This document shows positions 2,498-38,797 of a stretch of 40,934 nucleotides of DNA, piece by piece. Position numbers and translations under genes: made by a program. This DNA comes from a bacterium (lineage in GTDB: Bacteria; Verrucomicrobiota; Verrucomicrobiia; Limisphaerales; UBA8199): the NCBI GenBank assembly GCA_021784555.1, contig JAJYHY010000025.1, positions 1 through 40,934 of the forward strand, read 5' to 3'. Every line of letters begins with the position of its first letter. The first letter of the stretch is position 1. Under the pieces are notes generated by a model. The model had not been told where the DNA came from and did not search any database. It saw only the letters and a list, made by a program, of their open reading frames with translations.

Positions 2498-2498
2498 A

Positions 2499-5490: not shown

Positions 5491-5522
5491 GGGGGACGTC
5501 GCCAGATGCTTAAGAAAAGGCC

Positions 5523-5565
5523 TTGACAAAAGTCGCTCGTTATGTAATCACTTTGTCCCACATAA
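5523..5565 (+). promoter_or_regulatory. Promoter-like TTGACA with inverted repeat
   Basis: A consensus TTGACA lies at 5523-5528, with TAATCA 16 bases later (5545-5550). A short inverted repeat, TTATGT (5540-5545) with ACATAA (5560-5565), overlaps the -10 and could be an operator. It directly precedes the small reading frame at 5570 and the hsdS-like gene. Confidence 0.4.
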
Positions 5566-5569
5566 CAAG

Positions 5570-5677
5570 ATGCTGGTTCGCGAATACAAGAGCGCCCCGC
5601 CCAGCGAACGAGTGCTGGCCGCCGAACTCACCAAGGCCCGGCAGGCGCTGGAACGGAGAAAAGCGAGGGTGCGATGA
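5570..5677 (+). CDS. Small 35-residue protein overlapping hsdS, unrecognised
   Basis: ATG at 5570, TGA at 5675-5677, overlapping the hsdS start as ATGA. The product, MLVREYKSAP then SERVLAAELTKARQALERR and KARVR, is a charged single helix. It could be the C-terminal remnant of an upstream type I methylase/restriction subunit, or a short regulator translated from the promoter just upstream. The coupling to hsdS is seen; the function is not known. Confidence 0.3.
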   Translation: MLVREYKSAPPSERVLAAELTKARQALERRKARVR

Positions 5678-6483
5678 GCAGACAGTGGCCCAAGGTCACC
5701 CTCGGCGAGGTGCTCCGACGATCAGAGGAGACCATCCAACCGCAAGCCGAGGCCGAATATCGCGAAATCACGGTTCGCCTGCGGGGCAATGGGGTTGTGG
5801 CACGTCGTCGTGTTCTCGGCGCATCCTTATCTGGTCGTCGTTTCGTAGCTCGCACTGGACAATTCATCGCCTGGCGAATTGATGCGCGGAACGGCGCGAT
5901 GGGGCTTGTGCCAGAATCATTAGATGGCGCGCTGGTCACCAAGGACTTCCCGCTGTTCGAGCTGAACGCCGAACGGCTTGAACCGGCATTTCTCGGCTGG
6001 CTTTGCCGCACGGCAGGCTTTGTCGAGCTGTGCTCGCGAGCGAGCGAGGGCGCGACGAACCGCGTGCGGTTGAAGGAGAAGAGTTTTCTCGCGGTGGAAA
6101 TCCCCCTCCCGCCGTTGGCGGAGCAGCGGCGGGTGGTGGCGCGGATTGAGGAACTGGCCGCCCAAATCCACCAAGCCGGCATCCTCCGCCAACAAGCGGC
6201 CGAAGAAGCCCAGGCGGTTCTCGGCTCGCATCGCCGCCACATATTCGGCGAAGCGGAGTGTTCGACGAGCGGGAGAACAAGGCACTCCCTACTTGCTTCA
6301 GGGTGCCGCCGTCGCTACAGGGTTGAAATAGTCAGGGGCTTTATTCTGTACCTGCACCTGTCAATCGAGAACCTCCTAAAAGACCTTTTGGTTCACCGCC
6401 TAAAGGCCCAAACACGAGTATTTAGAGTCGAGCAGATAAGGCGCACGGTTGAAGATATGCGGTCCCGTGACATTGCAGAGTAA
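5674..6483 (+). pseudogene. Type I restriction-modification specificity subunit, half-size/truncated (HsdS-like)
   Basis: 269 residues. Residues 1-175 form one target-recognition domain with the usual signatures: WPKVTLGEVL at the start, QFIAWRIDARNGAMGLVP, GALVTKDFPLFEL and VRLKEKSFLAVEIPLPPLAEQRRVV, followed by the conserved spacer helix (ARIEELAAQI ... AEEAQAVL). A normal HsdS has two such halves (400-600 residues). Here the sequence after HIFGE (about residue 195) no longer resembles HsdS. No hsdM or hsdR is adjacent. Single-TRD S subunits can work as dimers, but the missing partners and unrelated tail favour a remnant. Confidence 0.7.
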
Positions 6484-22570: not shown

Positions 22571-23088
22571 TCATGGAGAGGGTTGGGGTCCTTGATCAAC
22601 CAAGCGGGACAGTCCGGTTCGTCCCGACCATAGGAGCGGGCTAATGCCCGCAACGCTAAGTCGGCCCGCTCGCGGTTTTCCTTCTCGAGGTTTCATGAGA
22701 CTTAATCTACTGCGGGCGGGGTGGAAGGGAAATGAAGAAGGGATTGTACGGGGTGGGCTGGGCCCGGGCGTGGCCGTCATCGCCGCGTTGAGCATCGCGG
22801 CCACCTGCGGCCAATGCGCCGCGTGATGGCCATGGAGATAATCCCGGTTCAGGACGAGCTTGGCCGAGCTGGGCCACCACTCGGCGATAAAGCTGGGTTG
22901 CTCGAACAGCCAGTGATGTCCGCCGTTAAGCACCCGCAGCGAGCACCCGCGCCGCTCGGCCCAGGCGCGGGCTTCGTCCTCCTGCCGGGCGGTGCGGTCC
23001 ATCCGGCGCTCGCGTCGCTGCCGCTTGTAGTCGTCGGGCGTAAGCGTTGGGCGCCGGCGCCGTCGTCGTTGAGTTTGAGGCTGATCAT
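22571..23088 (-). pseudogene. Fused remnant: start of the UPF0175-like gene joined to the RRERRMDR-family gene (copy 2)
   Basis: ATG 23088 gives MISLKLNDDG, the same start as the intact gene at 26009 (MINLELNDDG). Eleven codons later the sequence becomes, in another frame, the second family: RPTLTPDDYKRQRRERRMDR, RAWAERRGCSLRVLNGGHHW and EWWPSSAKLVLNRDYLHGHH. This parallels the intact gene at 25227-25679. About 300 bp separating the two genes in the other copy has been deleted. The start codon overlaps the stop of the preceding csb2 fragment as ATGA. The tail ends in unrelated sequence containing a GCGGGC-TAAT-GCCCGC hairpin (22636-22651). Confidence 0.65.
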
Positions 23089-24161
23089 GATGTCGGCCGC
23101 TGGCCGTGAATCTGCGGCGCTGGGACGAACAGCCCGAGGCCGAAGTGGCATGAATGGCCGAAAGCCGGAAATCGAAGTGTGACGGGGTCGTCAAATTCAA
23201 CCTCAAAAAACAAGCCGACCCGGCGTTCGTGTTTTCGGCCCATGTCACTGCCGTTTCGATGCACGGCGATGGCAACAGCGTCCTTGGACGCCCCTTCATC
23301 TGATCCTGGAGCGCGGACAACGTCCCATGAAGGCAGGGGTGGCATGGATTCCAGGCGCGACACGGCGCCGTTCTTCTCACCTTGGCGCCACACAAGGCCA
23401 CCAGTCGCAACGCCGGCTGCCCTGAGGCACTCAATCAACTGGCGCTCGGGCCGGTCCTTTTCCTTGAGCGTCACCTTGCCGCGCTGACGCCGGTAGAAGT
23501 AGCGGGGCGGCACGAATGGGCTGGCGCTACGCCAGACTTTCGACGAGGTCCTGCCGGTGGCGAAAGGCGCGTCGCTTGGCGCCTCCCTGGAGAGCGCGGT
23601 CAGGATGGGGCGCACTGGGTATCTGCCGCTGCCCCAGTCGAGCCGGTTGACGCGGAGCAGGATTTCGATTTCCGCCTGCGTGAAGCCATAGGGACACCAG
23701 ATGTGGAGGTCGCTCAAGGAGCCGCGCGAGTTGCCACGCTGCGCCATCGGCAGGTAGAAGGCGTGCTGATGGTCGCCGACGGCATCGGCGGGGCGGTCCT
23801 TCGCGTGACCGAGCAGCGCGAAGCTCGGCCCGACATCCCCGCAACGCTTGCAAAAATGGTTCGTGGCGGCGGCGCGGAATTGCTCCCTGAGCGGCACGAT
23901 GAATTTCGGTTGAATTAGAATGCGGGACGGCAGAGAGAAGCAGAGATAGTGGGCCATTTTCGGCCCGGCGGAGAGCGCGCTCTCCCATGCCGCGTCCTTG
24001 AGCAGCCTCCCAGATCCACAACCAGACTTCAGAAGGCCAATCTTCAGTCCTTCGGAGATGCGCTTCAGTTCCACCGTATCGGCCCCCGCCCTGGCGGCCT
24101 CGTCCAAAAGGTCGATCAGGTAGGTGTTTGCTCGTTCATCGCCAGGCTCGTTGTTGCTCAT
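23085..24161 (-). pseudogene. csb2: Chimeric ORF: GspE-N-like protein head joined to the C-terminal half of a second Csb2 (Cas5-Cas6)
   Basis: From ATG 24161, residues 1-57 (DERANTYLIDLLDEAARAGA ... GRLLKDA) are a copy of the 22208-22552 protein. From about 23990 onward the frame is a type I-U/I-G Csb2 C-terminal half: AVGDHQHAFYLPMAQ (the GHxHAxxLP-type stretch), LDWGSGRYPVRPILTAL, VWRSASPFVPPRYFYRRQRG and the terminal FGHSCHFGLGLFVP. About 200 N-terminal residues of Csb2 are missing. This Csb2 belongs to a different branch from the intact one at 26587 (VPPR motif here; SPVVLPGHDDP there), so it is a relic of a second system. Confidence 0.75.
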
Positions 24162-24184
24162 AGAGCCGATGGTTTTGTGGGGTA

Positions 24185-24241
24185 TCAAGTATCGGGTGCT
24201 GGCGCCGCCGGCAGGAACAGCCCCAGGCCGCTCACGAGGGC
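24185..24241 (-). pseudogene. Csb2 C-terminal tail relic 2
   Basis: A short frame ending at TGA 24185 reads ALVSGLGLFLPAAPAPDT. GLGLFLP is the signature last strand of Csb2, as in the two longer copies. It overlaps the end of the PemK/MazF-like toxin gene and stops 24 bp before the next small gene. Confidence 0.5.
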
Positions 24242-25294: not shown

Positions 25295-25679
25295 AAAGCG
25301 AGCGGGGAGGCCGGACCGGGCGTACCGGGGCGGCAAGGGGAAGCTCGGTTTGCACGGCCGGTGAATCGGCCAAAAACCGTTGCAGCACCGCGGCAACCTC
25401 TGGCCAGTGCGGCGCGTGATGGTCGTGGGGGTAATCCCGGTTCAGGACGAGCCTGGCCGAGCTGGGCCACCACTCGGCGATAACGCCGGGCTGTTGGAAC
25501 AGCCAGTGATGTTCGTCGTTGAGCACCCGGAGCGAGCACCCGTGCCGCTCGGCCCAGGCGCGGACTTCGTCCTCCAGCCGCGCCGTCCGGTCCATCCGGC
25601 GCTCACGTCGCCGCCGTTTATATTCGTCAGGAGTGAGCGTCGGGTGCTGCCGCCGACGTCGGTGGGATCGGGATTTCAT
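25227..25679 (-). CDS. Uncharacterised basic protein, RRERRMDR family (copy 1)
   Basis: 150 residues. It has a very basic head (MKSRSHRRRRQHPTLTPDEY, then KRRRRERRMDRTARLEDEV) and a compact domain RAWAERHGCSLRVLNDEHHW, FQQPGVIAEWWPSSARLVLN, with a Pro-rich tail. The basic head would suit nucleic-acid binding. The core appears again in the fused copy at 22571-23088. I do not recognise a characterised family. It lies between a UPF0175-like gene and a DUF6429-like gene in a tight three-gene cassette. Confidence 0.6.
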   Translation of the reverse strand: MKSRSHRRRRQHPTLTPDEYKRRRRERRMDRTARLEDEVRAWAERHGCSLRVLNDEHHWLFQQPGVIAEWWPSSARLVLNRDYPHDHHAPHWPEVAAVLQRFLADSPAVQTELPLAAPVRPVRPPRSLYEAWLRQNRRHGDGLVAPDGVH

Positions 25680-25688
25680 TGGTGAGTG

Positions 25689-26009
25689 TTAATTTTGGCG
25701 GGGATTCGCGTTGTCGCCCGGGCTTTCCGGCTTTGGTTCGCCAAGGAGTGAAAGCATATTGTCCACCTCCTCGGCCGCCTGTTCGGCGACAGACTTCGCG
25801 GAGATGCCGTGCTTCGTAAGCCACTCCACGCGCGCCACACCCGTGACCTGGGCGCACGCTGAGGAGGACAGCGCACCGATGTCGTATAGCGCGCGGCAGA
25901 GCACCTCGCGCAGAAAACGGTCCACGTCTTCGCCGCAGCCGTGCTCCCGTGCCGCCTCGCGAATCTGGTGGCCAACGAAACCGTCGTCGTTGAGTTCGAG
26001 GTTGATCAT
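25689..26009 (-). CDS. UPF0175-like small protein (possible antitoxin)
   Basis: 106 residues. The middle, FLREVLCRALYDIGALSSSA then CAQVTGVARVEWLTKHGI, resembles the UPF0175 antitoxin core (ALYREGKLSLGKAAELAGVSRWEFL pattern): a helix, then a short helix-turn-helix. The acidic tail ends PESPGDNANPRQN. The stop codon lies 9 bp before the next gene's start. No PIN-domain partner (the usual UPF0175 toxin) is adjacent; the RRERRMDR protein takes that position. The first ten codons recur at 23088. Confidence 0.5.
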   Translation of the reverse strand: MINLELNDDGFVGHQIREAAREHGCGEDVDRFLREVLCRALYDIGALSSSACAQVTGVARVEWLTKHGISAKSVAEQAAEEVDNMLSLLGEPKPESPGDNANPRQN

Positions 26010-26027: not shown

Positions 26028-26381
26028 TTATTTGCTTTTGGGCGAATCGGGTCGTGCCAGCAGAGCCTCCGCCTGCTGCAGCAACAGCGGCAGCTTCTCC
26101 TGTATGACGCGCCAAACGATCTCGTCGTCAACGGAATCATAGCCGTGAATGAGGCACCGCTCAAAGAGGTCCTCAAGACCCTCGGCCAGGGCAAGATAGT
26201 TGTCCAGCGTGGTGAATCCGTCCTGGAAACCGACCAGAAAATCCAGATCGCTGTTCTTGGGGTCGAAGCGGTCGAGGGTGGCCGAGCCGAACAGCCCCAG
26301 GTGCCGCACGTGGCAGCATTTGCAGAGCCGGCGGATTTCGGCCCTTAGGCTTTCGAGTTTTTCGCGAATGACGCTGTTCAT
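26028..26381 (-). pseudogene. mntA-hepT in-frame deletion fusion
   Basis: 118 residues from ATG 26381. Residues 1-70 are a minimal nucleotidyltransferase (MntA antitoxin): VRHLGLFGSATLDRF then DPKNSDLDFLVGF, the GSX(n)SDLD active site, and LALAEGLEDLF. The sequence then jumps directly to the end of HepT: ERCLIHGYDSVDDEIVWRVI then QEKLPLLLQQAEALL. Intact HepT has an RX4-6H RNase motif (usually RN..IHGY); here the spacing is RX3H. A deletion of roughly 350-400 bp across the mntA/hepT boundary explains this. MntA normally AMPylates HepT to neutralise it; this product is unlikely to do either completely. Confidence 0.75.
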
Positions 26382-26586
26382 GACGCAGTCGTTTGCATGG
26401 CCCAAGCTCGGTCCGAGACCCTGGTCTGAGGTGGCCCTGGATTTGCTCGGCAAAGTCCGCCTCGCGGCTCGTGGCGACCCCCCGTTTCATGCAACCTTCC
26501 GTCGGGGTCTGCCGATGAATTGTCGTTGTCCATAATCGTGCGCCTTTCACGGTTTTATCGGCATCGTCCACGCCGATTTGAGCGGT

Positions 26587-28233
26587 TTACTCCACCAAAG
26601 GCACAAACAGGCCGAGGCCCGAGAATCGCCCGCTTCCGATACAAAGAGGTCCGTTAATCCTCTTCAGATGAAAAGTGCCATCGGGCAATCGCTCGCGCCA
26701 GACTACGCGAACATGCAAGCGACGGAATCGTCGGCATTGATTGGGCGCGGAATACCGCGATGCAAGGTCCACTCCCGGAAGAAAGCCTGTGCCGCGCCAT
26801 TGCAAATCGGCATCGGCGACAAGCGTAGCTGAGAGACCGGAGTCGATAAGCGCCTTCCTCAAGAGACGCTCTATGCGTGTGTCGAGCTTTCGGATTATCT
26901 GCGCTTTCTCAGCAACTGAGAGAGGGGTTGCGGCATCGCGCAGACGGCGGCGCACTTTGCGTGGGTCGTCGTGGCCAGGGAGTACCACTGGGGACACGGT
27001 TGTCCAAGCGGCGGACTCGGCGAAGTATCCGGCAATCGCATTATCCTCGTCTGACTGACGGCGGAGAAAGGCGACTGGCTGCTTGCCATCCTCGTCGGTG
27101 AGTTCCTGGCCTTCGAGCGCGCGAACAATGCGCAGGAATTCAGAGGCATCGCAATGGCCACTGACAGTGACCAGCACGCGACGAATCGCGCCGACTGTGC
27201 TTCCGCGATCTTCACCGCGCCATTCAATCGAAGGTAGCGGGATGAAGATGAGCCGGGGGCTGCTCGCGGTTGGTGTTGTCTTAGTCGGATCGCTCTTGTC
27301 GTGCCCGAGCACGAAAGCGTCAACTTTGGATTTGTCCCAGCCAAGCGCACCGGCGAACTCCGGGCGGCTGGCGGCGTGGCGAAGCATGCCGGCGAGGTGG
27401 AGGCGGCGCCATTGCGGATCAAATGCTACAAAGCCCGAATCGTCGGGGCGACGCAGGGCAAAGACGGCATAGGGCGGCTGGCTGACTTCGGTTGCTCGGC
27501 GGTAGGTGACGACGCGGAAGGTCGAGAGTGGCGATACAGGGACGAAGATTTCGCGCCCATCGTCGAGGTGCTTGATCCGGCCCAGAAACGCGGCATGGTG
27601 TTCATCCAGCGCGGCGAGCGTGCCGACGATGGGAACACGCAATGATGCGCCTCCGGCCGTTTCGACGGGTAGCCAATGTTCGCCAGAAAATGACGTGGAG
27701 ATTTCGCGCTTTTCGACTGCGGCGTCGGCGACGACAAGGTCAACACCCCATCCGAGGCACGTAATGGCGCGGGCAAGCGCGATGAGCGTCTCGCGGTGTT
27801 TGGCGAAATCGGTATCGTCGAGCGTCCAAAGGTAGTGGACAGCGGCGGCGCCTGCCAAACGTCGTGGGCGAACGCGCTTTTCCGTGCGGTAGCCGGAGAT
27901 GTCGATGGGGTGATTCTTGCTGTCGAAAAACTTGCCCGCCGACCATTGTTTCGCAACGAGATCGCCAACATTATCAGGGACGTAGAGTTGGTATCCATTT
28001 GTCGTGGCGGCGCTGTCGGCAATTATTTGTGGCGGCGGCTTAACCGCTTCCAACCAGCGGAGAGCGTCAGCGTTTTGCGAGTTAATCCCGTTGCCGTCTA
28101 ATCGAGCTGCGGCGTTGGTGAGCGCCTGAAAGAGGCGCAGGGGCGAAGGCGGCCATTCGGATTTGCCGTTGTCGCCGCGTCCATGAAATTCTCCGTCGAG
28201 AAAGCGGACGCTGATGCGGAGATGTTCGGACAT
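26587..28233 (-). CDS. csb2: Type I-U/I-G CRISPR Csb2 (Cas5-Cas6-like fusion)
   Basis: 548 residues. The N-terminal RAMP half begins SEHLRISVRFLDGEFHGRGD, then SEWPPSPLRLFQALTNAAAR, the WPPSPxRLFQALxxA signature of Csb2 (GSU0054 type). The second half has TTVSPVVLPGHDDPRKVRRR and ends GSGRFSGLGLFVPLVE, the glycine-rich terminal strand of the family. Csb2 binds the crRNA 5' handle and processes pre-crRNA within Cascade. It starts 8 bp after csb1 and is the last gene of the operon; the usual next genes (cas4-cas1, cas2) are absent. Confidence 0.88.
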   Translation of the reverse strand: MSEHLRISVRFLDGEFHGRGDNGKSEWPPSPLRLFQALTNAAARLDGNGINSQNADALRWLEAVKPPPQIIADSAATTNGYQLYVPDNVGDLVAKQWSAGKFFDSKNHPIDISGYRTEKRVRPRRLAGAAAVHYLWTLDDTDFAKHRETLIALARAITCLGWGVDLVVADAAVEKREISTSFSGEHWLPVETAGGASLRVPIVGTLAALDEHHAAFLGRIKHLDDGREIFVPVSPLSTFRVVTYRRATEVSQPPYAVFALRRPDDSGFVAFDPQWRRLHLAGMLRHAASRPEFAGALGWDKSKVDAFVLGHDKSDPTKTTPTASSPRLIFIPLPSIEWRGEDRGSTVGAIRRVLVTVSGHCDASEFLRIVRALEGQELTDEDGKQPVAFLRRQSDEDNAIAGYFAESAAWTTVSPVVLPGHDDPRKVRRRLRDAATPLSVAEKAQIIRKLDTRIERLLRKALIDSGLSATLVADADLQWRGTGFLPGVDLASRYSAPNQCRRFRRLHVRVVWRERLPDGTFHLKRINGPLCIGSGRFSGLGLFVPLVE

Positions 28234-28241
28234 GGCGTTCG

Positions 28242-29462
28242 TTAGGCGGAAGGTGTTGTTCGAGAGGCGGTTTGTTGATCGGTGGCCTCGGTGGAGGTTT
28301 GGGATTCATCAGGGGCCGCTGTTCCCTTTCCTCTCTTGGCTTTCTTCGCCGCTTTTTCAGCAGCTTTGCCCGCGAGGTCGGCTTTGGCGGCCGCAGGAAC
28401 AAAATCAACGAACCTCCCTTTCCACACACCCAGCGCGTTTTTGTCTTCGTCATTTTCCATTTTGTCCTTCCAGAATGCCGCCGCCGCCACTTTCGCATAT
28501 TCCAACGCGATTTCGTGCGTGACCTTGGCATCAGTTCGTGTGCCGTCCGCCGCGATTTCTTTGAATGAATGCTCTCCATCTTCCTTCTTCACCAGAATCG
28601 TGCCTTGGCGCAGGTAGCCGCCGGGAAGTTTGGTGAACGCGACCAGTGCGAGACCGAGGATATACCGGCGGAGTTTCAGCGTTTCCTCGTCGCTCGTGGA
28701 GGAAATCAAGCGCAGTGCCGCCAAGGCGAGCGTCGCGTCGCGACGAATTCCCCTTTCACCGGCGATAACGCCGCCGTGGGTGGCCGTCGCTGGAACGTGG
28801 GTGAATCCGGAAGTGGAGCGTTCTTTCCGGTCCTTCTCGTCCTTGATTGGACCGAGAACGCTTTCCTTGTCATATACTGTGACGGGATCGGAACTGCCTC
28901 CCGCCCAATACTGTGCGGATCTCGTGAGGCTTTTCACGTCGTAAGCGCGGATAATGGAGGCAATGAGGCGAGGTGCCTTAGCCTGGGTGCCGCGGGAGTC
29001 CCAAACGCCGAAGACGAGCGATGTGGGCGCGATTTTCGCGAGAGGCAGCGCGTCGCCTTTGAGAAGGGCTTTGAACGCCGCCTCTAATTCGCTTTGCAGC
29101 GATGAGCAGCGCACAATGGCGTCCCCGGCGCGATGTCCGGCATCGAGCAGGTTGATTTCCTTCTCGCCCGCCTTTATGACGATTTGTGGCACGAGCGCAG
29201 CGTAGTCGCCGGTTTTGAAAAGCGGCTCGATGCGGTTGGACTGCGAGCCGACACTGTCAACGAGCGCGATGTTCGTGCCGTCGGCGAACGCATCGATGTT
29301 GTAGCCGCCCTTGAAGGTTTTGTCTTCGGAGGGGGCATAAGTCGCGGGGAAGAAGACGCCGTCGGCGCCTTCTACAGGAATGAGTTGCTCGCGGATGACG
29401 AGGGCGGCGGGGCCAGCGGAAGCAAGGTAATTGTCGAATTTTGAGAGGACATTTTCGCTCAT
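28242..29462 (-). CDS. csb1: Type I-U/I-G CRISPR Csb1 (Cas7 backbone subunit)
   Basis: 406 residues. The recognised GSU0053-type pattern is: IREQLIPVEGADGVFFPATY, ALVDSVGSQSNRIEPLF, ALVPQIVIKAGEKEINLLDA, GHRAGDAIVRCS, KIAPTSLVFGVWDSRGTQAK, PRLIASIIRAYDV, LTRSAQYW, then ERGIRRDATLALAALRLI. Csb1 forms the helical backbone along the crRNA. The last 60 residues are Lys/Ala-rich (EKAAKKAKRGKGTAAPD), an extended tail. It begins 32 bp after the Cas3-Cas8-like gene. Confidence 0.9.
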   Translation of the reverse strand: MSENVLSKFDNYLASAGPAALVIREQLIPVEGADGVFFPATYAPSEDKTFKGGYNIDAFADGTNIALVDSVGSQSNRIEPLFKTGDYAALVPQIVIKAGEKEINLLDAGHRAGDAIVRCSSLQSELEAAFKALLKGDALPLAKIAPTSLVFGVWDSRGTQAKAPRLIASIIRAYDVKSLTRSAQYWAGGSSDPVTVYDKESVLGPIKDEKDRKERSTSGFTHVPATATHGGVIAGERGIRRDATLALAALRLISSTSDEETLKLRRYILGLALVAFTKLPGGYLRQGTILVKKEDGEHSFKEIAADGTRTDAKVTHEIALEYAKVAAAAFWKDKMENDEDKNALGVWKGRFVDFVPAAAKADLAGKAAEKAAKKAKRGKGTAAPDESQTSTEATDQQTASRTTPSA

Positions 29463-29494: not shown

Positions 29495-32400
29495 TTAACG
29501 GGGTGAAATGGTTCGCGCCGTGAGGAACGCCTTATGTTTTCTCTGCCCTGTGCGGAACCAGCTCTCGAAGCGGAGAATGGAGCGGGAATTGTCAGGCAGG
29601 AGGCCATAGACGGCGGCGGGCAGCGGCGAGATGGCCAGGGGACGCGTCCAAATACTGTAATCAAAATTGCGCGGCGTATCTCGCACGGGCACGGGAGTAG
29701 CGCGTTGCAGTCCGACGAGTGTGAGCAACTCGACGGCGGGAGAAGCGAGTGTCTCCAGCTTTAGGTCGTTTGCAGAAAAACCGACATCGCGGGAATGCGC
29801 GTTGGGGCCGCGGTTGGCGTCAAAATAGAACGGTTCGACCTTTTCGCCGTTTGCGATGTCGCCGAGGCTCTCTTCGCACCTTATTTTGGCCTTCGACACA
29901 GACTTCTCATATCTTGCGGCAATCTTTGCTTTCTCGGCCTCAAGTTCCTTTTCGGTCTTAGTTGCAGACGCCTTTTCCAGATCTTTGGCTCTTTTCTTCA
30001 TCGCCTTATGCACCGATTTTTTGAGGGTGTCTTGTGGCGGCTCAAAAGCTATGCGTGCGTCAAAGAGGATGTTTCTGCTGTCGGCCGGGGACTTCGAGAG
30101 GGTGTGTTTTATTGTGTAGTTCATGGAACGTGCTATGCGCGTCACCTTCATTGACCCGGCCCAGACTTTTAGCGCGGAGGTTTTGGCTGATGCAGTAGTC
30201 CACCAGTCAAGCCGCAGCCCGAAATCGGCCCCGACTATGAGCGGCGGCGCGGAGGCGTCACCTTCCTCATTGTCGCCTTTCTCTTCCGGCGCTTCCTGGA
30301 TTTCGCTGTCTTCGTCTTCGTCCTGATCGTCAGCTACGATCTCAGCAGACGTGATTTTTCCGAGGATGTCGCCGAGTGGTGGCGTATTGGCCAAATGGAA
30401 ACGCCATTGGCGGGTGGCGGGATCTTGCTCGAACCAAGCGAGAGCAGGCTCTGCGGTGTTGCCCTTGGCAGCAAGGCGGTCGGCGAGTTCAAAAAGGCCG
30501 CAGCAGGCGAAGTAATGGCCGGGATTGGCGGGATTGACCGCAAGGGTGGCGGTGGGAGCTATCTTGTTTCCGGCGTTTCTTACCGGAGCTCTGAATCCTG
30601 TATCCCGCCCCGGGTGGCCACTCGAGAAATTAGCGGCGTCACCGGTAACGACAATCCCGGCGCTGGCCGCGTAGTCGGCAGCGCGCAGTATGGATTCCAG
30701 CCAAGCGAGACCCCAGCGCCCGAAACGCCTTTGGAGCCGGCCAAAACGGCGTGGAACTTCTGTTGCGAGCGACGCCAATTCTTCGAGCGAACCGGAGGCA
30801 TAGTCAAGAATCTCGTCCGCAGGGAAATGCGGGCGTGCGCGTCCGTGGTGGGCGGCAACGATGTGCAAGACGATGTCGCGCTCGGTGTCATCGAGCGCCG
30901 CAAATTCGGCGTCGCAGGCGGCGTCGTTGAGCGAGCCGAACTCGTGTCGATAGTGCTCGGCGACGTTCCGCATGCGCATGCCGGGTGTGGATTTGGCAAG
31001 GATGGTTTCCGGCTTGGTGGAGTCGTAATCGAGATTACCGAGGTTGCGCTGCCATTGTACCCGGTTCTTCCCAAGGTCATGCAAACGCGCGGCAATTGTG
31101 ATGCAGCGGCGCAGATCAGGTTTGCCGACGGCGAGCGCGGATTTATCAGGGAAACATCTCGCGGCGATTGCGGCAGCGTTGGCGGCGACGAGGCCGGTGT
31201 GATCGGCGAGCGTTTCGGCGGAGGCGCGGTCGGCGCGAGCGCCGATGGCGTTTTCAGCTATGGGTTTGCACCAAAGCAGGAAACGAGGCTCTTCGGCGGC
31301 CTCGTCGGAGATTTCGATGGCCCGAACGATTTTGGCGGCACCGTCGGGCAGATCATCACGTCTGACCTCCTCATGGCGGATTATGGCGGAAACGTCTTCG
31401 GCCGCTGTGTCGTCATTTGCACTGAGGAGCCCTTTCGCATCGAGGCCGCCGATGCTGGCGGGAAGGATGAGCGTGGCGTCGGCCAAGCGGGTAAGGGCCG
31501 CGGCGGCGTCAAAATCGGAGAGCTTAAAGGACGAAACGGAGCCGTTGTCAGCAATGAGCCATGCGTTGGGAAAACCTTGTGCGCCCAGCAGGCGCTTCTT
31601 AAGCAGCGCGTCCAGCGTCTTGACGATGCGAGCGGTTGTGTCGCGCAGGAGTTCGGCTGGCTTGAGAGGAAAGTCGTCGAGGAAGGCGTCTGGATTTTCG
31701 ACGTACTGAAAATCGCGCTCGTCGCGCCACGCGAGGTGAGTCTCTGGCGGCTGCCACTCGGCTTCTCCGTGGAGGTAAGGTGCGACTGGCGGGCGCGCGG
31801 CGATGGGTTCGCGGATCGAGGTGAGCGACCACGCATCGAACTGGATTTCCGTGGCAACGCGCCTGTGCGGCTCCGGGGAAAATGCAGCAGCGCGTTCGGA
31901 GGCGGGTAGCTCTTCGAGTGCTGCGGGGCTGGCGGAACCGCCCACTTGTTTTAGAAGCGCGAGGGTGCGTTCGCGGCGGACTTCGAGCGGGTTGGAGGGA
32001 TCAAACCTCGTTTCGTGGACAACGGTGATCTCACTGTCGTCACCGTCCCCGAAGCGGTTCACGCGTCCGAAGCGTTGAGCCATGCTTTCATAGGTCGAAA
32101 GGTCGCAAACGAGGTCGTCGGCAGAGATATTGACGCCAACTTCGCCGGCACTCGTTGCCACGAGAAAAACGGTGCCGGGGGTGGGAGTGACGTCGACGGC
32201 GCGGTCCTTTTCGGGAAGGAAACGTTGGAAGACGGCATTTTGGGAGACGAGTTCGTCGCGCTCCTTGCCACGCATGGTGCCGGTGAGCGTGGCGACTTTT
32301 CCGTTGCGCTCGCCTTTATCCAATTCAGCGGCAACCTTTACGGCGGTTTCAACGGAGCGAGTGAAAACGAGCACCGCCCGTTCACCGGATTTCTGTCTCG

Positions 32401-33217
32401 CGAGATCGACAAGTTTCTCGTCCAATTTTTCTCCTTCGCCGAGCGCCTTGCGCGAGAGCCGTTTGACGGCGTTGACGCGTTTTTGGACGATCTCGTTTTC
32501 ACGGTCGGCTTCGGTCAGCGTGAACGGCGGGGCGCTGTCTCCGTTGGCGGCGCGGCTGGTCGCGGTGAGTTCAATGATGCGCAATTTGCGCGGATCGGCG
32601 GCGGCGTTTTGTGCGTTGGTGATGCTTTCGAGCAGTTTTTGGAAGGAGGGTTCGAGGTGGGCTTCGTCATGGACGATCAGCGCGTCTTGACCGAGGAAAC
32701 CGGCGTGGAGCGGTCGCGTTTTGAAACCGCGCGTGTAGCGGCTGAACAGCAGTCCGCTGCCAATCATGTCAACGGTGCCGACTATGACGGCCGGCCGGGT
32801 TGGGTCTGCGCACCACTCACCGTTGTCGGCGAATTGTCCGCGCAGTGTGCTGATAGCCAGCGGCGGCGCCTCGGGCGTCGGCAGTGGCAGAGCGCACAGG
32901 GACGCGAGCGCACCGCGAACTTCAGCGAGCGCCGCTTTGTTGAGCGCAGCACGCAGTCGTTCAGCCTCTGCGGTAGTTTGGTCCACCACCGTGCGACGAT
33001 TGACGACGTAAACGAGCCGACGGGGAGTTTTCCCGGGCACGATGGCAAGCGCGGAGAGCCAGATGGCGACGATGGAAGTCTTGCCCAAACCTGTGGGCAG
33101 ATTGACTGATTCCGGAATCTCACCCTCGATGAAACGGGCGAATAATGCCTCTTGCCAAGGAAAGGGCAAAGAGCCGGTCAATTCCCTAAAGAGCTCAAGA
33201 AAGTTTTTTGACTTCAT
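29495..33217 (-). CDS. cas3: Type I-U/I-G Cas3 helicase-HD fused to a Csb3/Cas8u2-like subunit
   Basis: 1,240 residues. The helicase has PTGLGKTSIVAIWLSALA (motif I, about 42-50), VHDEAHLEPSFQ (motif II), VFLVATSAGEVGVNISADD and MAQRFGRVNRFGDGDD (motif VI). The HD nuclease lies C-terminal to the helicase, as in this subtype: LHDLGKNRVQW near 712 and IVAAHHGRARPHFP. From about residue 885, after a linker, a further domain begins TATLAVNPANPGHYFACCGL then FELADRLAAKG. This is the characteristic start of Csb3/Cas8u2, normally the next separate gene. The tail has a Lys/Glu-rich coiled coil (about 1080-1140). The frame is continuous, so target binding and DNA cutting appear joined in one polypeptide. 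AAAGG lies 4 bases before the ATG. Confidence 0.87.
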   Translation of the reverse strand: MKSKNFLELFRELTGSLPFPWQEALFARFIEGEIPESVNLPTGLGKTSIVAIWLSALAIVPGKTPRRLVYVVNRRTVVDQTTAEAERLRAALNKAALAEVRGALASLCALPLPTPEAPPLAISTLRGQFADNGEWCADPTRPAVIVGTVDMIGSGLLFSRYTRGFKTRPLHAGFLGQDALIVHDEAHLEPSFQKLLESITNAQNAAADPRKLRIIELTATSRAANGDSAPPFTLTEADRENEIVQKRVNAVKRLSRKALGEGEKLDEKLVDLARQKSGERAVLVFTRSVETAVKVAAELDKGERNGKVATLTGTMRGKERDELVSQNAVFQRFLPEKDRAVDVTPTPGTVFLVATSAGEVGVNISADDLVCDLSTYESMAQRFGRVNRFGDGDDSEITVVHETRFDPSNPLEVRRERTLALLKQVGGSASPAALEELPASERAAAFSPEPHRRVATEIQFDAWSLTSIREPIAARPPVAPYLHGEAEWQPPETHLAWRDERDFQYVENPDAFLDDFPLKPAELLRDTTARIVKTLDALLKKRLLGAQGFPNAWLIADNGSVSSFKLSDFDAAAALTRLADATLILPASIGGLDAKGLLSANDDTAAEDVSAIIRHEEVRRDDLPDGAAKIVRAIEISDEAAEEPRFLLWCKPIAENAIGARADRASAETLADHTGLVAANAAAIAARCFPDKSALAVGKPDLRRCITIAARLHDLGKNRVQWQRNLGNLDYDSTKPETILAKSTPGMRMRNVAEHYRHEFGSLNDAACDAEFAALDDTERDIVLHIVAAHHGRARPHFPADEILDYASGSLEELASLATEVPRRFGRLQRRFGRWGLAWLESILRAADYAASAGIVVTGDAANFSSGHPGRDTGFRAPVRNAGNKIAPTATLAVNPANPGHYFACCGLFELADRLAAKGNTAEPALAWFEQDPATRQWRFHLANTPPLGDILGKITSAEIVADDQDEDEDSEIQEAPEEKGDNEEGDASAPPLIVGADFGLRLDWWTTASAKTSALKVWAGSMKVTRIARSMNYTIKHTLSKSPADSRNILFDARIAFEPPQDTLKKSVHKAMKKRAKDLEKASATKTEKELEAEKAKIAARYEKSVSKAKIRCEESLGDIANGEKVEPFYFDANRGPNAHSRDVGFSANDLKLETLASPAVELLTLVGLQRATPVPVRDTPRNFDYSIWTRPLAISPLPAAVYGLLPDNSRSILRFESWFRTGQRKHKAFLTARTISPR

Positions 33218-33290
33218 TTACCTTTAACAAAGACACCAAGTTGACAGCTCTGAGACCCTAGACTACTCTGTTCCAGATGCAAGAGAATTC

Positions 33291-33537: not shown

Positions 33538-34068
33538 ATGTTGAAAATGGACCTCGCCGAGAGAATCCAACATTACGCTCAAAGTTTCGGCGTGACGCTT
33601 GGCAGTAATCTCGGCTCCGGACATCATGGTAACGTGTTTGTTGCGCGAAGCAACACGAACCAAGCGCGTTTTGCAGTGAAATTTTGCAGGGATGAACCGC
33701 CGTATGTTCGCGAGTGCCGGGCCTACCGAATCCTGAAGGAGCGGCGTGTGTTTGACATCGAAGGCTTTTCTATTCCGCAATTTCTCGGGAGCGACGACGA
33801 ATTCCTCGCGATTCAAATGAGCATCGTCGAACCGCCTTTTTTGCTGGATTTTGGGTCGGCGTATAGCCGCGAGTCGCTCCCGGAATTTTCTGAAAGCATC
33901 TGGGCGGAGTGGCGTGAGCAAAAGCAACAAGAGTTCGAAGAACGCTGGCCTCTTGTGGAAAACGCGCTGATGGTCCTTCGCTCTTTTGACATCTTCATGC
34001 TCGACATTCATGCTCGAAACATTGTCTTTCCGCGACCGACGATGATTCATTGGTCGCGGCCTCGTTGA
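33538..34068 (+). CDS. Kinase-like protein 1 (minimal protein-kinase fold)
   Basis: 176 residues. Kinase features in order: a Gly-rich loop GSNLGSGHHGNVFVARS (about 22-38), a lysine strand ARFAVKFCRD, an alpha-C glutamate in YVRECRAYRILKE, a hinge region FLAIQMSIVEPPFLLDFGSA, and a catalytic-loop-like LDIHARNIVF near the C-terminus (D...N as in HxDxxxxN kinases, the His replaced). The protein ends within 11 residues of that Asn, so no DFG segment or activation loop is present. In-frame ATG at 33547 is an alternative start. The stop overlaps the next gene. It runs opposite to the cas genes. Confidence 0.6.
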   Translation: MLKMDLAERIQHYAQSFGVTLGSNLGSGHHGNVFVARSNTNQARFAVKFCRDEPPYVRECRAYRILKERRVFDIEGFSIPQFLGSDDEFLAIQMSIVEPPFLLDFGSAYSRESLPEFSESIWAEWREQKQQEFEERWPLVENALMVLRSFDIFMLDIHARNIVFPRPTMIHWSRPR

Positions 34069-34580
34069 AGAGTGTCGTTGTTGAAGGTATCGGTTCCCAT
34101 ATTGAGAACCCTCTCCGCGCTCACGTGAGCGCGGCCCCTTTCGGCTTCATGAGCGTGGCGCCGAGCGACTGGCCTTTGGGACGGTCGGAGAAACACAAAG
34201 CCCAGCCGGCGAAGGTTGCCCTCAAAGTCCTGCGCTGGAGCGAGGCTTACGAACGGGAGAAGCAGGTGTACGCGCGGCTCCGACAAGCCGGAGCGGGCAG
34301 CGTGCTCGGATTCAACGTGCCGCAACTCCTCGCATCCGATGACGAGTTGCGGGTCCTTGAGATGACTATCGTCAGGCCGCCGTTCATCCTGGATTTCGCG
34401 GGCGCATACCTTGACGCGCGGCCGCAATTTCCTGAGGAGGTGTGGAGGGACTGGGAGGCGGAGAAGAGGGAGCAGTTCGAGGAGCGATGGCCGACCGTTC
34501 AGGCATTGCTTGACGCGTTTGAGGCGCTGGGGATTTACCTGCTGGACGTGTCCCCGGGCAACATCACGTTCGGCGATTGA
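34050..34580 (+). CDS. Kinase-like protein 2, paralogue of the preceding gene
   Basis: 176 residues from TTG 34050 (other candidates: ATG 34149). It aligns with protein 1 from the lysine strand on: AKVALKVLRW, EAYEREKQVYARLRQ, NVPQLLASDDELRVLEMTIV, RPPFILDFAGAYLD, EEVWRDWEAEKREQFEERWP and YLLDVSPGNITFGD. The last element again resembles the kinase catalytic loop (D..PGN) and the protein stops immediately after. The Gly-rich loop is not evident; its N-terminus may be displaced by the overlap. It ends 28 bp before the cas3 5' stub on the other strand. Confidence 0.58.
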   Translation: MVAASLKSVVVEGIGSHIENPLRAHVSAAPFGFMSVAPSDWPLGRSEKHKAQPAKVALKVLRWSEAYEREKQVYARLRQAGAGSVLGFNVPQLLASDDELRVLEMTIVRPPFILDFAGAYLDARPQFPEEVWRDWEAEKREQFEERWPTVQALLDAFEALGIYLLDVSPGNITFGD

Positions 34581-34608: not shown

Positions 34609-34788
34609 TCACCGCAGGCGAGGCGGCATTGATAAGCGTAGGGCGAGTGCCCGCCGGTGGCTACCGTGAAGAAGTCGCGAAAGTTCATGTTGCCTCAGAT
34701 TCTCCCAATTTCCGAATTCGCCGTTGGGGATGTTTTCCCCTATTTCAGCAGCGGTGACAAGAGAATTCTGCTTCGCCGCCCGAATTTG
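34609..34788 (-). pseudogene. Duplicated 5' end of cas3 (upstream region plus about 26 codons)
   Basis: About 180 bp nearly identical to 38621-38797. It includes the ATG (34688) and MNFRDFFTVATGGHSPYAYQ then CRLACGD, against MNFRNFFTVATGHEPYPYQC then RLACGEK in the full gene, plus about 100 bp upstream (TTGCCTCAGATTCTCCCAAT on the plus strand in both). The similarity ends at GTCACCGCAGG in both copies. The frame then runs into antisense sequence of the kinase-like genes. It is the stub of a second cas3 copy. Confidence 0.8.
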
Positions 34789-34821: not shown

Positions 34822-37800
34822 CTAAAATAGCCCCGAAAAGGCGCAAAAAGCGCAAAAGCCGGCGTTGAAAGGGGCTCTTTGCACCCGCCCCTGCCAGGCG
34901 CGGGGTCCTGGCGGGATGCGCCCCCGAATTTGGCCTTGCTCGGCCGCCTGAGGAGTTTCCAGATGGGCTGGGCTCCCGTTGAGGGGACCGCTTGAAAGGC
35001 CGGTCCCATCTGAGCTAAACTGTATGCGTGACGAATATCCAGGAAATCGAGCAGGCCATCGCACGGCTGCCCAGGGACGAATTCTTCGAGTTGGTCGAGC
35101 GTTTGCGCGAGCGCTACGCCGACGAGTGGGATCGGGAGATAGAGGAAGATGCTCGGAGCGGGAAGCTGAGGAAGCTCTACGAGCGGCTTCAATCCGAAAA
35201 TCAGGGCCAGCCGGAGGTGCCGCTTGATCAAGTCCTCGACGACCCAGAGCTTTCGTAGCCGGCTCAAGGCCTTGCTTTCGGAGGTGCGGCGCCTTGCCGG
35301 CAAGGATTTCAAGCTCCGGCTGCGGGATCAGCCGCACCCTTCGGTCCACTTCAAAAAGGCGGGCGAGTTCTGGGCGGCGCGAATTGGCAGCAACCATCGG
35401 GCATCGGCGATCTGGAGAGGCGATAGAGTCAGGTGGTTCTGGATCGGCACACATGATGAGTACCAGGAACTTATCAAATGAGCCCGCTCCCCGGCCATGC
35501 CCGTCACCGCTCACTCCTATTCGCTTCCCCCGGTCGGCAGCCTCGATTGTCCGCCACCGTCCCGCCCAGTCTGGAACCAAATCCCCGCAAATCGCCCGGT
35601 GCAGGTCCAGAGTCAGCTCGGGGTCGCTTAGCGAACGGCTAGCGAAAACTCCCGAGTAAATCTCTGTCTCGATGCGTGTAACCCGTTCGGCCAGTAACGG
35701 GGCTAACTGCGTGTAGGTGAGGAGGCCCCGGGTCGTCTGGATGAAGCGGGTGGAGCGATCCGGTCGAGTATCTCGCGGATGGTCGCTTCCGCCACCGGCT
35801 CCCTCTCGAAAGCCATACTCTCCGCCACATCCGCCGGAATAGCATCCCAACGCAGCCGTTGCTTTGTCTCCGCCGGCAGAGCGCGCCACTTGAGCACGGT
35901 TTCGATCCAGTTCATCACGCACACTATCACGCACTCCTTCCCTCTGTGCAAGAATCGAAGCGCGGATGTCCGCCGCCCGAAAGACCGCCTCGAAAAACGC
36001 CAGGCGAAACGGACCGTAACGCTCGAGGAGTCGGAGGACGCCGCGGGTGTAGCTCTCGTGCGGGTACTCGCCACCGGATCCCGGGCTGGCACGCCCCATC
36101 TTCCGGCAGTCAGTGGAAAGCGATTCGCAGCCGAGGCTTTGACCTCCGAGACAAACGGCTGGGACACCGTCCCCGTTCGCCACGCCCCGCACAGTCTCCG
36201 TGTCTTTCGCGGCATTCGGGAATTTCGGGATCTCATCCCGGAGGACTTTTCGCACATGGCCGTGGTGGCTCATGATGACATACTCGGAGAGGAGGCTGCC
36301 GAGGTTGATGTCGCGGTCTGGGCCAAGCCGCTTTTGCTCCGCCTGACGAAAAGCGAGCGCGGAGGCGACTTCGTGGGCGATGCCGGGACGAAACAGACGG
36401 CGAAGCTCCCGCACTTTTGCTTTGAGGGCGCGGCCTCTGAGCGGCTGGCCGTTTTGGTGGAGGAGGGGGCTATCGGAGAGCGAAAACTTCGCGAAGGGCC
36501 GGTGCTCATCTTTGCCGTTGACGTTCGCCTTGGCCAGAGCGTCGAGCACGGCTTGCTGCCAAGCGGGATGGCTCTTGCCGATGTCATGCCAGGGAACGGC
36601 AGCCAGGAGGGCGTCGCGCTCGGCTCCGCGCCTTGCGTCCGAGAGCATGCCGTCCAAAAGTGCGCTCAATTCGCGGCTCACTTCCTCGGTGTGAGCCGCG
36701 ATGCTTCGCCAGCCGTTCTCAAGGCAGGAGAGCAATTCCCCATCTGGCGGGTCTGCCCCCGGCTGATAATGGGAGGCGTGCTTGTTGTCGTCCTTCTGTC
36801 CCGTCCAGCCTGCGGCGTCGTCGTATCCGCCTGCTGAGAGCGGCAGCAGAACAGTCATGCCGGGCGCAAGGCCGGCGTCGCGGACGCTGATCCAACCGCT
36901 CACCTTTCCGCGCCAAATCCAACCTCGATTCAGCACGTCCCGCGCCTCCTTGGCCTTGCTGACGGGCACGGAGCAAAGCTCGTCGCGCTGGTAACCGGGC
37001 AGGAAGTCCGGGGCTTCGTCGTTCTCCGACCACGCCTCGCGCCAGCAGACCTGGATATCGGTGTCCTCATCCAAGCCGCGAACGAACGGCGATACGTCGG
37101 TGAAGCCCAGCGAGAGGTTCGCGTCGGTATCGAAGAAGTCGAGCAACTCGTGCCGCTGGAGTGAATATGGGCAGCGGGAAATCGAAGCAGCGACGGCCTG
37201 TCGTATCTGTTCATCTTCAAATGCTGCGGGAGAGGCACTAGTTTGCTCTTGCAGAGGCTCCCACGCTTTTTGGCACGCGGCCGACGCGTACGGCAGGCAC
37301 CGTTTGGCATTTTCCCTCTCGCGCTGTTCACGAGCCTCCTCGTTTTCACGCGCAGGCGCTCCTCTCATCCCCACCCCCACAACAATGGCCAAGGGCTCCC
37401 ACGGCGACTGGTTGAATTCGCCTGCGCGGTTCAGCCTTCCCAGCCGCTGCACGAGCGAAGCGAGAGGGGCCACTTCGGAACAGAGAATGCCGCTCGAAAC
37501 GTCCACGCCCGCTTCGACAACCTGCGTGGCGACGACGATCTGGCCGTTGGGAAAGACCGCCTGATCGAGTGAGCCGAGGCGCCGCATCTGTTCTTTCCGC
37601 TCCGGCGGGCGGAAACGCGAGTGCATGAGCAGCAGGTCGCAGGCTTCCGGTTTCCGAACGTCAAGTTGCCGATACACCTCCACCGCTCGGTCCACGGTGT
37701 TGCAGATGATCAGCGTCCGGGGAGGAAGATTCGGGTCGCCGCCGACCTTCGCAAGCATCTCGCCGTGCTGTCTGAGGATGCACTCGATTAGCGTTGCAGC

Positions 37801-38697
37801 GGCCCTGGCGTCGCCAAAGTTGGAGTCTTGTTTCGGTTCGAGTCGCTTCACCGCGCTGCGGCGCTCGTGAATGGGACCAGTCGTGGCAGATTTTTCGTCC
37901 GCGCTGAGCCTGAACTCGAAGTTGTCCGGGCGCTGGACGTTACGCCATTCCCGCGTCCGCAGGTGGTCGGGATTGTGCGTCGCCGAGATATACCACGTCA
38001 CCGAGCCGGCGGCGCCGAACGAATCAAATCCCGCTGGAGCAGCTTGTCCGTCTCTTCGGAAGGCCTCGAGCTGACACGCCGTGCTCAATCCCGGTCCCAT
38101 CAACTGCGTCTCATCCATCACCCAGAGGCAGTCGTTGTTTAGCAGCCCGAAGTGCATCGGCCAACGGTAGCGGCTCATGCCATAGCCGCGGTTGAGCGCA
38201 CGGCTCAGGAGCATGTCTTGCGTGCCGATGAGGATGGCGGGTTTTTCGGGCCAGATGTCCCCGTCCCGGTCCGCTTCCTCGCCGCCCATGAGGATGATGG
38301 GAGAGTGGCTGGCCAACCACGCGAGCTCGGCGTCCTCTGGAAACGCTCCGACGAGGTTTTGGAGCCAGGCGGCAACATTATCGCGCGTCTGCTCCACGAG
38401 CGTCCGCATCGGCAGGCAATAGACGAGGCGGCGGGGCCACGAGCCGTTTACGATTTCAGATTTGCGATTCTCGATTTGGTATGCGACGCGGTTCCAGAGC
38501 CAGGCGAGGACCACGGCGGCGGTCTTGCCGAGGCCGGTGGGGACGTTGATGAGCCGGGAGCGACATCCGTCTGGGTCGGGGTTGGTGAGCCAGTCCACTT
38601 CGGTTTGGTCGTCCATCTTCTCACCGCAGGCGAGGCGGCATTGGTACGGGTACGGTTCGTGCCCTGTGGCTACCGTGAAGAAGTTGCGAAAGTTCAT
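34822..38697 (-). CDS. cas3: Second type I-U/I-G Cas3 helicase-HD protein (homology to about 35940; frame runs on to 34822)
   Basis: 1,291 codons are open, but Cas3 similarity covers about residues 1-920. Motifs: INVPTGLGKTAAVVLAWLW (motif I, about 50-60), RRLVYCLPMRTLVEQTRDNV (Ia), VMDETQLMGPGLS (motif II, DETQ), ISATHNPDHLR (III), QVVEAGVDVSSGIL, and LVQRLGRLNRAGEF (VI). The HD domain is C-terminal (HTEEVSREL, WHDIGKSHPAW near 703, YVIMSHHGHVRKVLRDEIPK), ending RLAFFEAVFRAADIRASILA then QREG. Beyond that the frame has no stop at the expected place: it passes out of phase through the start of fic, in phase through the rest of fic, and antisense through the toxin-antitoxin genes. A normal stop has probably been lost. 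It is distinct from the Cas3 domain at 33217. Confidence 0.85.
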   Translation of the reverse strand: MNFRNFFTVATGHEPYPYQCRLACGEKMDDQTEVDWLTNPDPDGCRSRLINVPTGLGKTAAVVLAWLWNRVAYQIENRKSEIVNGSWPRRLVYCLPMRTLVEQTRDNVAAWLQNLVGAFPEDAELAWLASHSPIILMGGEEADRDGDIWPEKPAILIGTQDMLLSRALNRGYGMSRYRWPMHFGLLNNDCLWVMDETQLMGPGLSTACQLEAFRRDGQAAPAGFDSFGAAGSVTWYISATHNPDHLRTREWRNVQRPDNFEFRLSADEKSATTGPIHERRSAVKRLEPKQDSNFGDARAAATLIECILRQHGEMLAKVGGDPNLPPRTLIICNTVDRAVEVYRQLDVRKPEACDLLLMHSRFRPPERKEQMRRLGSLDQAVFPNGQIVVATQVVEAGVDVSSGILCSEVAPLASLVQRLGRLNRAGEFNQSPWEPLAIVVGVGMRGAPARENEEAREQRERENAKRCLPYASAACQKAWEPLQEQTSASPAAFEDEQIRQAVAASISRCPYSLQRHELLDFFDTDANLSLGFTDVSPFVRGLDEDTDIQVCWREAWSENDEAPDFLPGYQRDELCSVPVSKAKEARDVLNRGWIWRGKVSGWISVRDAGLAPGMTVLLPLSAGGYDDAAGWTGQKDDNKHASHYQPGADPPDGELLSCLENGWRSIAAHTEEVSRELSALLDGMLSDARRGAERDALLAAVPWHDIGKSHPAWQQAVLDALAKANVNGKDEHRPFAKFSLSDSPLLHQNGQPLRGRALKAKVRELRRLFRPGIAHEVASALAFRQAEQKRLGPDRDINLGSLLSEYVIMSHHGHVRKVLRDEIPKFPNAAKDTETVRGVANGDGVPAVCLGGQSLGCESLSTDCRKMGRASPGSGGEYPHESYTRGVLRLLERYGPFRLAFFEAVFRAADIRASILAQREGVRDSVRDELDRNRAQVARSAGGDKATAALGCYSGGCGGEYGFREGAGGGSDHPRDTRPDRSTRFIQTTRGLLTYTQLAPLLAERVTRIETEIYSGVFASRSLSDPELTLDLHRAICGDLVPDWAGRWRTIEAADRGKRIGVSGDGHGRGAGSFDKFLVLIMCADPEPPDSIASPDRRCPMVAANSRRPELARLFEVDRRVRLIPQPELEILAGKAPHLRKQGLEPATKALGRRGLDQAAPPAGPDFRIEAARRASSASRSEHLPLSPDPTRRRSARANARPTRRIRPWAAVRWPARFPGYSSRIQFSSDGTGLSSGPLNGSPAHLETPQAAEQGQIRGRIPPGPRAWQGRVQRAPFNAGFCAFCAFSGLF
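34992..35021 (+). promoter_or_regulatory. Promoter for the RelE/ParE-like toxin-antitoxin pair
   Basis: TTGAAA (34992-34997), an 18-base spacer and TAAACT (35016-35021). The antitoxin GTG follows at 35028, only 6 bases beyond the -10, which suggests a leaderless or nearly leaderless transcript. Confidence 0.5.
35028..35258 (+). CDS. Antitoxin of a RelE/ParE-like pair
   Basis: 76 residues from GTG 35028: NIQEIEQAIARLPRDEFFEL then VERLRERYADEWDREIEEDA, SGKLRKLYERL and an acidic tail VPLDQVLDDPELS. This is a standard layout for small antitoxins: an N-terminal helix that includes LPRDEFFEL, a DEWDREIEEDA segment, and a C-terminal toxin-binding part. It overlaps the toxin start by 35 nt. The cassette lies antisense within the run-on reading frame of cas3. 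Confidence 0.75.
   Translation: MTNIQEIEQAIARLPRDEFFELVERLRERYADEWDREIEEDARSGKLRKLYERLQSENQGQPEVPLDQVLDDPELS
35224..35481 (+). CDS. RelE/ParE-like toxin
   Basis: 85 residues from TTG 35224. SRLKALLSEVRRLAGKDFKL then HPSVHFKKAGEFWAARIGSN, HRASAIWRGDRVRWFWIGTH and DEYQELIK follow the RelE/ParE/HigB barrel pattern (helical hairpin, then RIGxxHRA and a WIGTHDEY ending). Family members block translation or gyrase. Insertion of this cassette appears to have cut the fic gene on the other strand just after its WAGRWRTIE motif. Confidence 0.75.
   Translation: MIKSSTTQSFRSRLKALLSEVRRLAGKDFKLRLRDQPHPSVHFKKAGEFWAARIGSNHRASAIWRGDRVRWFWIGTHDEYQELIK
35540..35915 (-). pseudogene. fic/DOC-family gene, N-terminal part, frameshifted and truncated
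   Basis: The start is ATG 35915 (MNWIETVLKWRALPAETKQR), preceded by GGAG and in-frame GTGs. The inhibitory-helix-like region SMAFEREPVAEATIREILDR follows. A one-base shift near 35748 (reading CTCCACCC; one extra C would restore phase) leads to FIQTTRGLLTYTQLAPLLAERV, then IYSGVFASRS, LDLHRAICGDLVPDWAGRWR and TIE. This is the typical entry to a Fic domain. The catalytic HPFx[D/E]GNGR loop is absent; the gene is interrupted by the toxin-antitoxin cassette. Fic proteins transfer AMP to target proteins. It lies directly behind cas3 in the same orientation. Confidence 0.65.
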
Positions 38698-38797
38698 GTT
38701 GCCTCAGATTCTCCCAATTTCCCGAATTCGCCGTTGAGGATGTTTTCCTCTATTTCAGCGATGATGACAAGAGAATTCTTCCTTAGCGCTCGAATTT
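38621..38797. repeat. cas3 5' region, parent copy of the 34609-34788 duplication
   Basis: Contains the cas3 ATG (38697) and about 100 bp upstream. It matches the 34609-34788 stub at most positions, including CCGTGAAGAAGT, TTGCCTCAGATTCTCCCAAT and GACAAGAGAATTCT. Any cas3 promoter lies within the duplicated piece, so the stub should carry it too. Confidence 0.8.

Follow-up and report, generated by a model that had tools for sequence, protein, structure and literature searches.

We read an operon in the 40,934-nt stretch of verrucomicrobial DNA analysed here (the window) as a type I-G CRISPR effector in which Cas3g and Csb3 (Cas8g2) form one protein, with Cas3 built into the complex 1:1 through Csb3, and we give this reading a probability of about 0.75. 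The novelty lies in the covalent Cas3-Csb3 link of this type I-G effector, a link that evolved more than once; the joining of Cas3 to a large subunit is already known in type I-E.

The initial annotation, made from the sequence, had proposed that Cas3 and a Csb3/Cas8u2-like protein share a single chain. This was borne out by an uninterrupted frame of 1240 amino acids, by the NCBIfam profiles TIGR02621 (type I-G Cas3, Cas3g, GSU0051; 622.6 bits against a cut-off of 400) and TIGR04106 (Cas8g2/Csb3), and by the PADLOC Cas3g and Cas8g models, which divided the protein in the same way (Table 1). In agreement with the annotation, no stop codon interrupts the fusion's frame at 30560-30580. The annotation had Cas3 stop around residue 880; the TIGR02621 match stops at 853, and the residues from there to 889 are linker. 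Walker A (PTGLGKTS), DEAH, QRFGRVNR, HD, HH and final AAD motifs are all present in the Cas3 half, and their key residues are kept across the eight fused proteins of alignment A3. TIGR04106 matched residues 890-1045 and a second stretch (E 4.6e-33), and residues 896-915 read PANPGHYFACCGLFELADRL. The score, 115 bits for the fusion and 119 for the domain alone, lies below the curated cut-off of 125, probably as a result of inserts; all eight other fused genes passed the cut-off, and the profile matched all 80 members of the Csb3 alignment A2. The predicted helical insert, which corresponds to helices 176-201 and 204-232 of the AlphaFold2 model, occurs in some fused relatives and is missing in others (alignment A3). 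No Cse1/Cas8e family match was found among the matches listed for the fusion protein, whose C-terminus is Csb3.

Table 1. Features of the fusion gene and its operon, in window coordinates.
Feature	Position	Strand	Details
cas3g-csb3 fusion gene	29495..33217	-	1240 aa, one ORF open from ATG to stop
Cas3g helicase and HD nuclease part	30659..33202	-	residues 6-853; TIGR02621, E 1.7e-186
Inter-domain linker	30551..30658	-	residues 854-889, ~36 aa (about 40); no in-frame start codon
Csb3/Cas8g2 domain	29498..30550	-	residues 890-1240; TIGR04106; AlphaFold2 model
Predicted long helical (coiled-coil-like) insert in Csb3 domain	29867..30037	-	residues ~1061-1117
AAAGG Shine-Dalgarno-like sequence	33221..33225	-	precedes ATG of fusion gene
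cas7g (csb1, GSU0053 family), backbone subunit	28242..29462	-	TIGR02570, E 2.8e-47; PF09617
csb2 (Cas5-Cas6 fusion, GSU0054 family), crRNA processing subunit	26587..28233	-	TIGR02165, E 1.2e-82; PF09609

The Csb3 domain (residues 886-1240) was modelled with high confidence (pLDDT 90.8, pTM 0.91), and a search of the PDB with this model returned no fold match at E < 0.001, the CRISPR proteins listed being non-significant matches of Cse3 (Cas6e) type. Makarova et al. (PMC3150331) describe Csb3 as resembling Cas6, with a helical C-terminus similar to that of Cas8, and its Cas8 label derives from published assignment and from where the gene lies in the operon. An hhalign comparison between Csb3 and Csx17 was non-significant (probability 0.8%, E 0.068), with a short match that pairs N-terminus with N-terminus. 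A full-length fused model, made for L050 from an eight-sequence alignment, was too poor to show domain packing (pLDDT 49.7).

Downstream of the fusion, Csb1/Cas7g (TIGR02570, 160.8 bits, cut-off 38) and Csb2 (TIGR02165, 278.6 bits, cut-off 45) complete a type I-G effector whose genes run cas3-csb3-csb1-csb2. No CRISPR array with 36-nt I-G repeats (..GGCCCCATTGAAGC) was found in the 40.9-kb window, and a search for cas1 (Cas4-Cas1 fusion) and cas2 beside the effector genes found no cas1 on this contig; the cas1 genes of the genome lie on other contigs. CRISPR activity in this strain would thus depend on arrays elsewhere. These absences, together with remains of other I-G genes nearby (a fragment of csb2 at 23085-24188, a cas3 whose C-terminus is altered at 34822-38697 and a second copy of a cas3 5' end at 34609-34720), raise the possibility that the operon in the window is an orphan or is decaying and has ceased to confer immunity, whatever the fusion does elsewhere. 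We regard this as unlikely, although it deserves weight, since none of the three operon genes is truncated, the catalytic motifs are intact, protein similarity to the fused relatives is high, and other arrays in the genome could act in trans. Myxobacterial I-G arrays have been reported scattered away from the cas genes, and in some cases these systems have no adaptation module (PMC11237760), so that a missing adaptation module does not decide the effector subtype.

To place the fusion among its relatives, a GTDB contig set was scanned with a three-sequence Csb3 alignment, and the best 80 of the 143 relatives recovered, together with the window and G042, gave 82 csb3 loci for comparison. The initial annotation had stated that csb3 is normally a separate gene after cas3, and 73 of the 82 loci are indeed not fused; the remaining nine are fused, a proportion that is not an unbiased frequency because a fused query was used to rank the set by similarity. 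The search for the same fusion in other genomes thereby yielded eight further fused genes: L029 (Opitutaceae), L030 (Deltaproteobacteria), L032 (Verrucomicrobium sp. BvORR106), L045, L047, L048 (Desulfobacteraceae), L050 (Verrucomicrobiota) and L098 (Gemmataceae, on a 4.9-Mb scaffold), from records assigned to Verrucomicrobiota, Planctomycetota, Myxococcota and Thermodesulfobacteriota. They are full length in seven genomes (45-80% identity among them) and partial in the eighth, where the gene of L047 is cut at the contig start. The annotation had also considered that close relatives might all carry two genes, and we found instead that the closest homologues are fused too, while more distant ones are split. 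Cas7g and then csb2 follow the fused gene in all eight loci. Cas1 genes in long frames (575-867 aa, typical of Cas4-Cas1) lie on the fusion's contig in six of the eight relatives, their Cas4-Cas1 identity being confirmed by alignment in two, L030 and L098. Repeats of I-G type make up arrays beside or close to the fused operon in L098 (55 copies), in G652 (27 copies, on the fusion's contig) and in G649 (four copies, at the contig end). Given these cas4-cas1 genes and arrays, the fused systems are complete CRISPR systems in several genomes. No second, stand-alone csb3 was found in the window's genome or in the eight other fused genomes, and no Csb3 was found in viral contigs and plasmids.

We evaluated the junction by the spacing between the conserved Asp that closes the HD region (RAAD) and the Csb3 NPG motif. 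This spacing was 129-150 nt (43-50 residues) in all nine fused genes, in frame every time, and lengths were alike in all three fused lineages. In contrast, in the 41 of 73 split loci where the two motifs could be located, the spacing was 62-131 nt, with one outlier of 214, and csb3 was in another frame in all 41; most of the split junctions inspected overlapped in an ATGA-like manner. Fused linkers are therefore longer than the split-locus spacing, and fusion required a frame change and extra linker rather than mere loss of a stop codon. No ATG, GTG or TTG lies in frame in the 70 codons upstream of the window's NPG motif, indicating that csb3 has lost its own start there, and an internal start that would release free Csb3 was rejected for the window on the same grounds. 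A possible start does lie near the junction in L030, L045, L047, L048 and L098, and in some of these relatives free Csb3 may be made from it.

The history of the fusion was examined on Cas3 and Csb3 trees, both from quick searches. The Csb3 tree required four state changes, three of them forced by well-supported branches; in the Cas3 tree, a branch with low support (22%) set seven of the fused genes together, with L098 apart. A single origin for all fused genes was rejected by AU tests on both proteins (p 1.8e-4 for Cas3, p 3.7e-38 for Csb3), as was the joining of L047 to the main fused group (p 4e-5), whereas a single origin of the main seven fused genes was not rejected (p 0.48). The rejections, of all fused genes together and of L047 with the main group, imply that the fusion arose at least three separate times; because L047 lacks most of Cas3, its separate origin is a result from Csb3. 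For the two closest fused pairs, dN/dS was about 0.19 in Cas3 and 0.20 in Csb3 (L045/L048) and about 0.15 and 0.24, respectively (L050/L029). Judged from such comparisons, both halves are under purifying selection, and the linker is less constrained.

The weaker constraint on the linker bears on a second alternative, that fusion is a convenience of translation or assembly, which fixes expression at 1:1 before a host protease cuts the linker and Cas3 is recruited as usual. Poor linker conservation (pN 0.22-0.46, versus 0.09-0.27 for Cas3 in the same pairs) would fit this, as would low model confidence at the linker in the poor full-length model, and split relatives already couple cas3 and csb3 through their ATGA-type overlaps. 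However, the distance from the conserved Asp to NPG stays within 43-50 residues over three independent origins, suggesting that linker spacing matters, and no conserved cleavage motif is found in alignment A3. We therefore judge this explanation improbable. That sequencing, binning or assembly joined two adjacent genes is scarcely credible: although the window is one of 658 contigs in a fragmented assembly (87% complete), other assemblies, such as those of Verrucomicrobium sp. BvORR106 and the 4.9-Mb scaffold, carry the fusion too, with linkers that diverged independently, and a frameshift or indel near the junction, raised by the initial annotation, left no signature and is ruled out by the eight other fused genes, by a linker longer than in split loci and by the loss of the csb3 start, which an indel in a normal cas3/csb3 pair would leave in place.

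With Cas3 built in through Csb3, the whole interference complex would consist of three gene products, Cas3-Csb3, Cas7g and Csb2, with crRNA. The Csb3 half would dock on the Cas7/Csb2/crRNA backbone in place of a separate Csb3, so that every assembled effector would carry one Cas3, and the immune machine would have its blade fixed on for good. Once a crRNA-guided R-loop has formed, the tethered HD nuclease would nick the displaced strand, and the helicase would reel in and degrade DNA within reach of the flexible linker, with Cas3 presumably retained during degradation. Published work on other effectors provides parallels. In the Thioalkalivibrio type I-G system, Cas3 is purified together with Cascade ahead of target binding, provided that Cas8g is there, and R-loops form efficiently only with Cas3 (PMC9638904); by analogy, the fusion may be a permanent, covalent form of the Cas3-Cas8g contact that is non-covalent in this characterised effector. 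The Bifidobacterium interference complex has been described as Csb1-Csb2-Csb3 (PMC12915315). In E. coli type I-E, an engineered Cas3-Cse1 fusion entered Cascade and conferred resistance, which indicates that a Cas3-large-subunit design can work (PMC3890593). Counting against the mechanism, the Cas3-Cas8g contact is known for the Csx17-type large subunit and not for Csb3. It is plausible that fusion would remove the need to recruit Cas3, although this would be less dramatic in type I-G, in which Cas3 is reported to be a stable effector subunit through Cas8g before target binding (PMC9638904).

The families and the order cas3-csb3-csb1-csb2 are shared with type I-G (formerly I-U) of Geobacter (GSU0051-0054) and Bifidobacterium (csb1-csb2-csb3), in which cas3 and csb3 are separate; in the window the two form one gene, which has gained an in-frame linker and lacks a start codon for csb3. 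The type I-F Cas2-Cas3 fusion likewise joins Cas3 to another Cas protein, but to the adaptation protein Cas2, and HD-Cas10d of type I-D likewise joins a nuclease domain to a Cas protein, but only the HD domain, and to Cas10d. The Thioalkalivibrio sulfidiphilus effector also has a Cas7 backbone and Csb2, and its Cas3 is held through the large subunit; there, however, the contact is non-covalent and the large subunit is Csx17/Cas8g, which has no detectable kinship to the window's Csb3 (PMC9638904). Close in design are natural Cas3-Cse1 fusions in type I-E, cited in passages of PMC3890593 and PMC9241507, in which Cas3 is likewise joined to the Cascade large subunit, but in another subtype and to Cse1 rather than Csb3; we infer that the two arose separately. 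The initial annotation, which named no characterised example, did not cite this precedent. Our literature search, largely confined to open-access papers, found none that describes a Cas3-Csb3 fusion, and an earlier mention is possible; a term search of the main text of the 2025 classification (PMC12669027) gave no hit for I-G or Csb3.

A central point of control in type I immunity is whether Cas3 comes to Cascade by recruitment or resides in it, and a natural, repeatedly evolved Cas3-Csb3 link offers a ready-made experiment on this choice. The fusion also argues that, in the Csb3 branch of type I-G, the closest subunit to Cas3 is Csb3, a protein with a poorly understood role. A further step, which we put forward tentatively as possible without leaning towards it, is that Cas3-Csb3, Cas7g and Csb2 make a compact, pre-armed type I effector of three proteins from which Cas3 is unable to leave, repeatedly evolved in type I-G. 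If so, Cas3 would either degrade DNA while tethered or strip Csb3 off on leaving, and target recognition, nuclease loading and prespacer supply would be linked unlike in characterised type I systems. As a three-gene, roughly 6.6-kb effector that contains Cas3, the fused system may also suit genome engineering.

Several other features of the window and its genome were observed. The csb2 fragment is C-terminal (TIGR02165, 59 bits), and a 281-nt repeat, 86% identical, lies downstream of both csb2 copies (22791-23071 and 25384-25664); fragment and repeat suggest that the I-G operons of this genome have undergone duplication and recombination. Downstream of csb2, small genes at 26028-26453 and 25689-26009 encode an MNT-like nucleotidyltransferase (HepT-like C-terminal match) and a UPF0175-like protein, and an ORF that shares the C-terminal sequence of the latter recurs near the I-G operon of contig C164. 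The further cas3 at 34822-38697, also of type I-G, has its 5' end and upstream region (38621-38797) in a second copy ~4 kb away (34609-34720), at up to 97% identity over 60 nt, and two small plus-strand ORFs at 33538-34068 and 34050-34580, one of which has a weak kinase-like match, adjoin the second copy. In the genome (G000; contigs C111, C164, C189 and C476), five cas3 genes are of type I-G and csx17 is present twice, apparently an unusual load for one subtype. A second type I-G operon, L018 on contig C189, encodes at 2399-5743 on the minus strand a Cas3g with a C-terminal Fic domain (PF02661, E 2.6e-11, residues 958-1060, motif HPFQDFNGR), followed by csx17 at 177-2402. The further cas3 of the window is 43% identical to this Cas3-Fic protein over its residues 1-988, homology ends near the start of the Fic domain, and the final ~240 residues seem either to be out of frame or to have no relation to it. 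The Cas3-Fic fusion may merit separate study.
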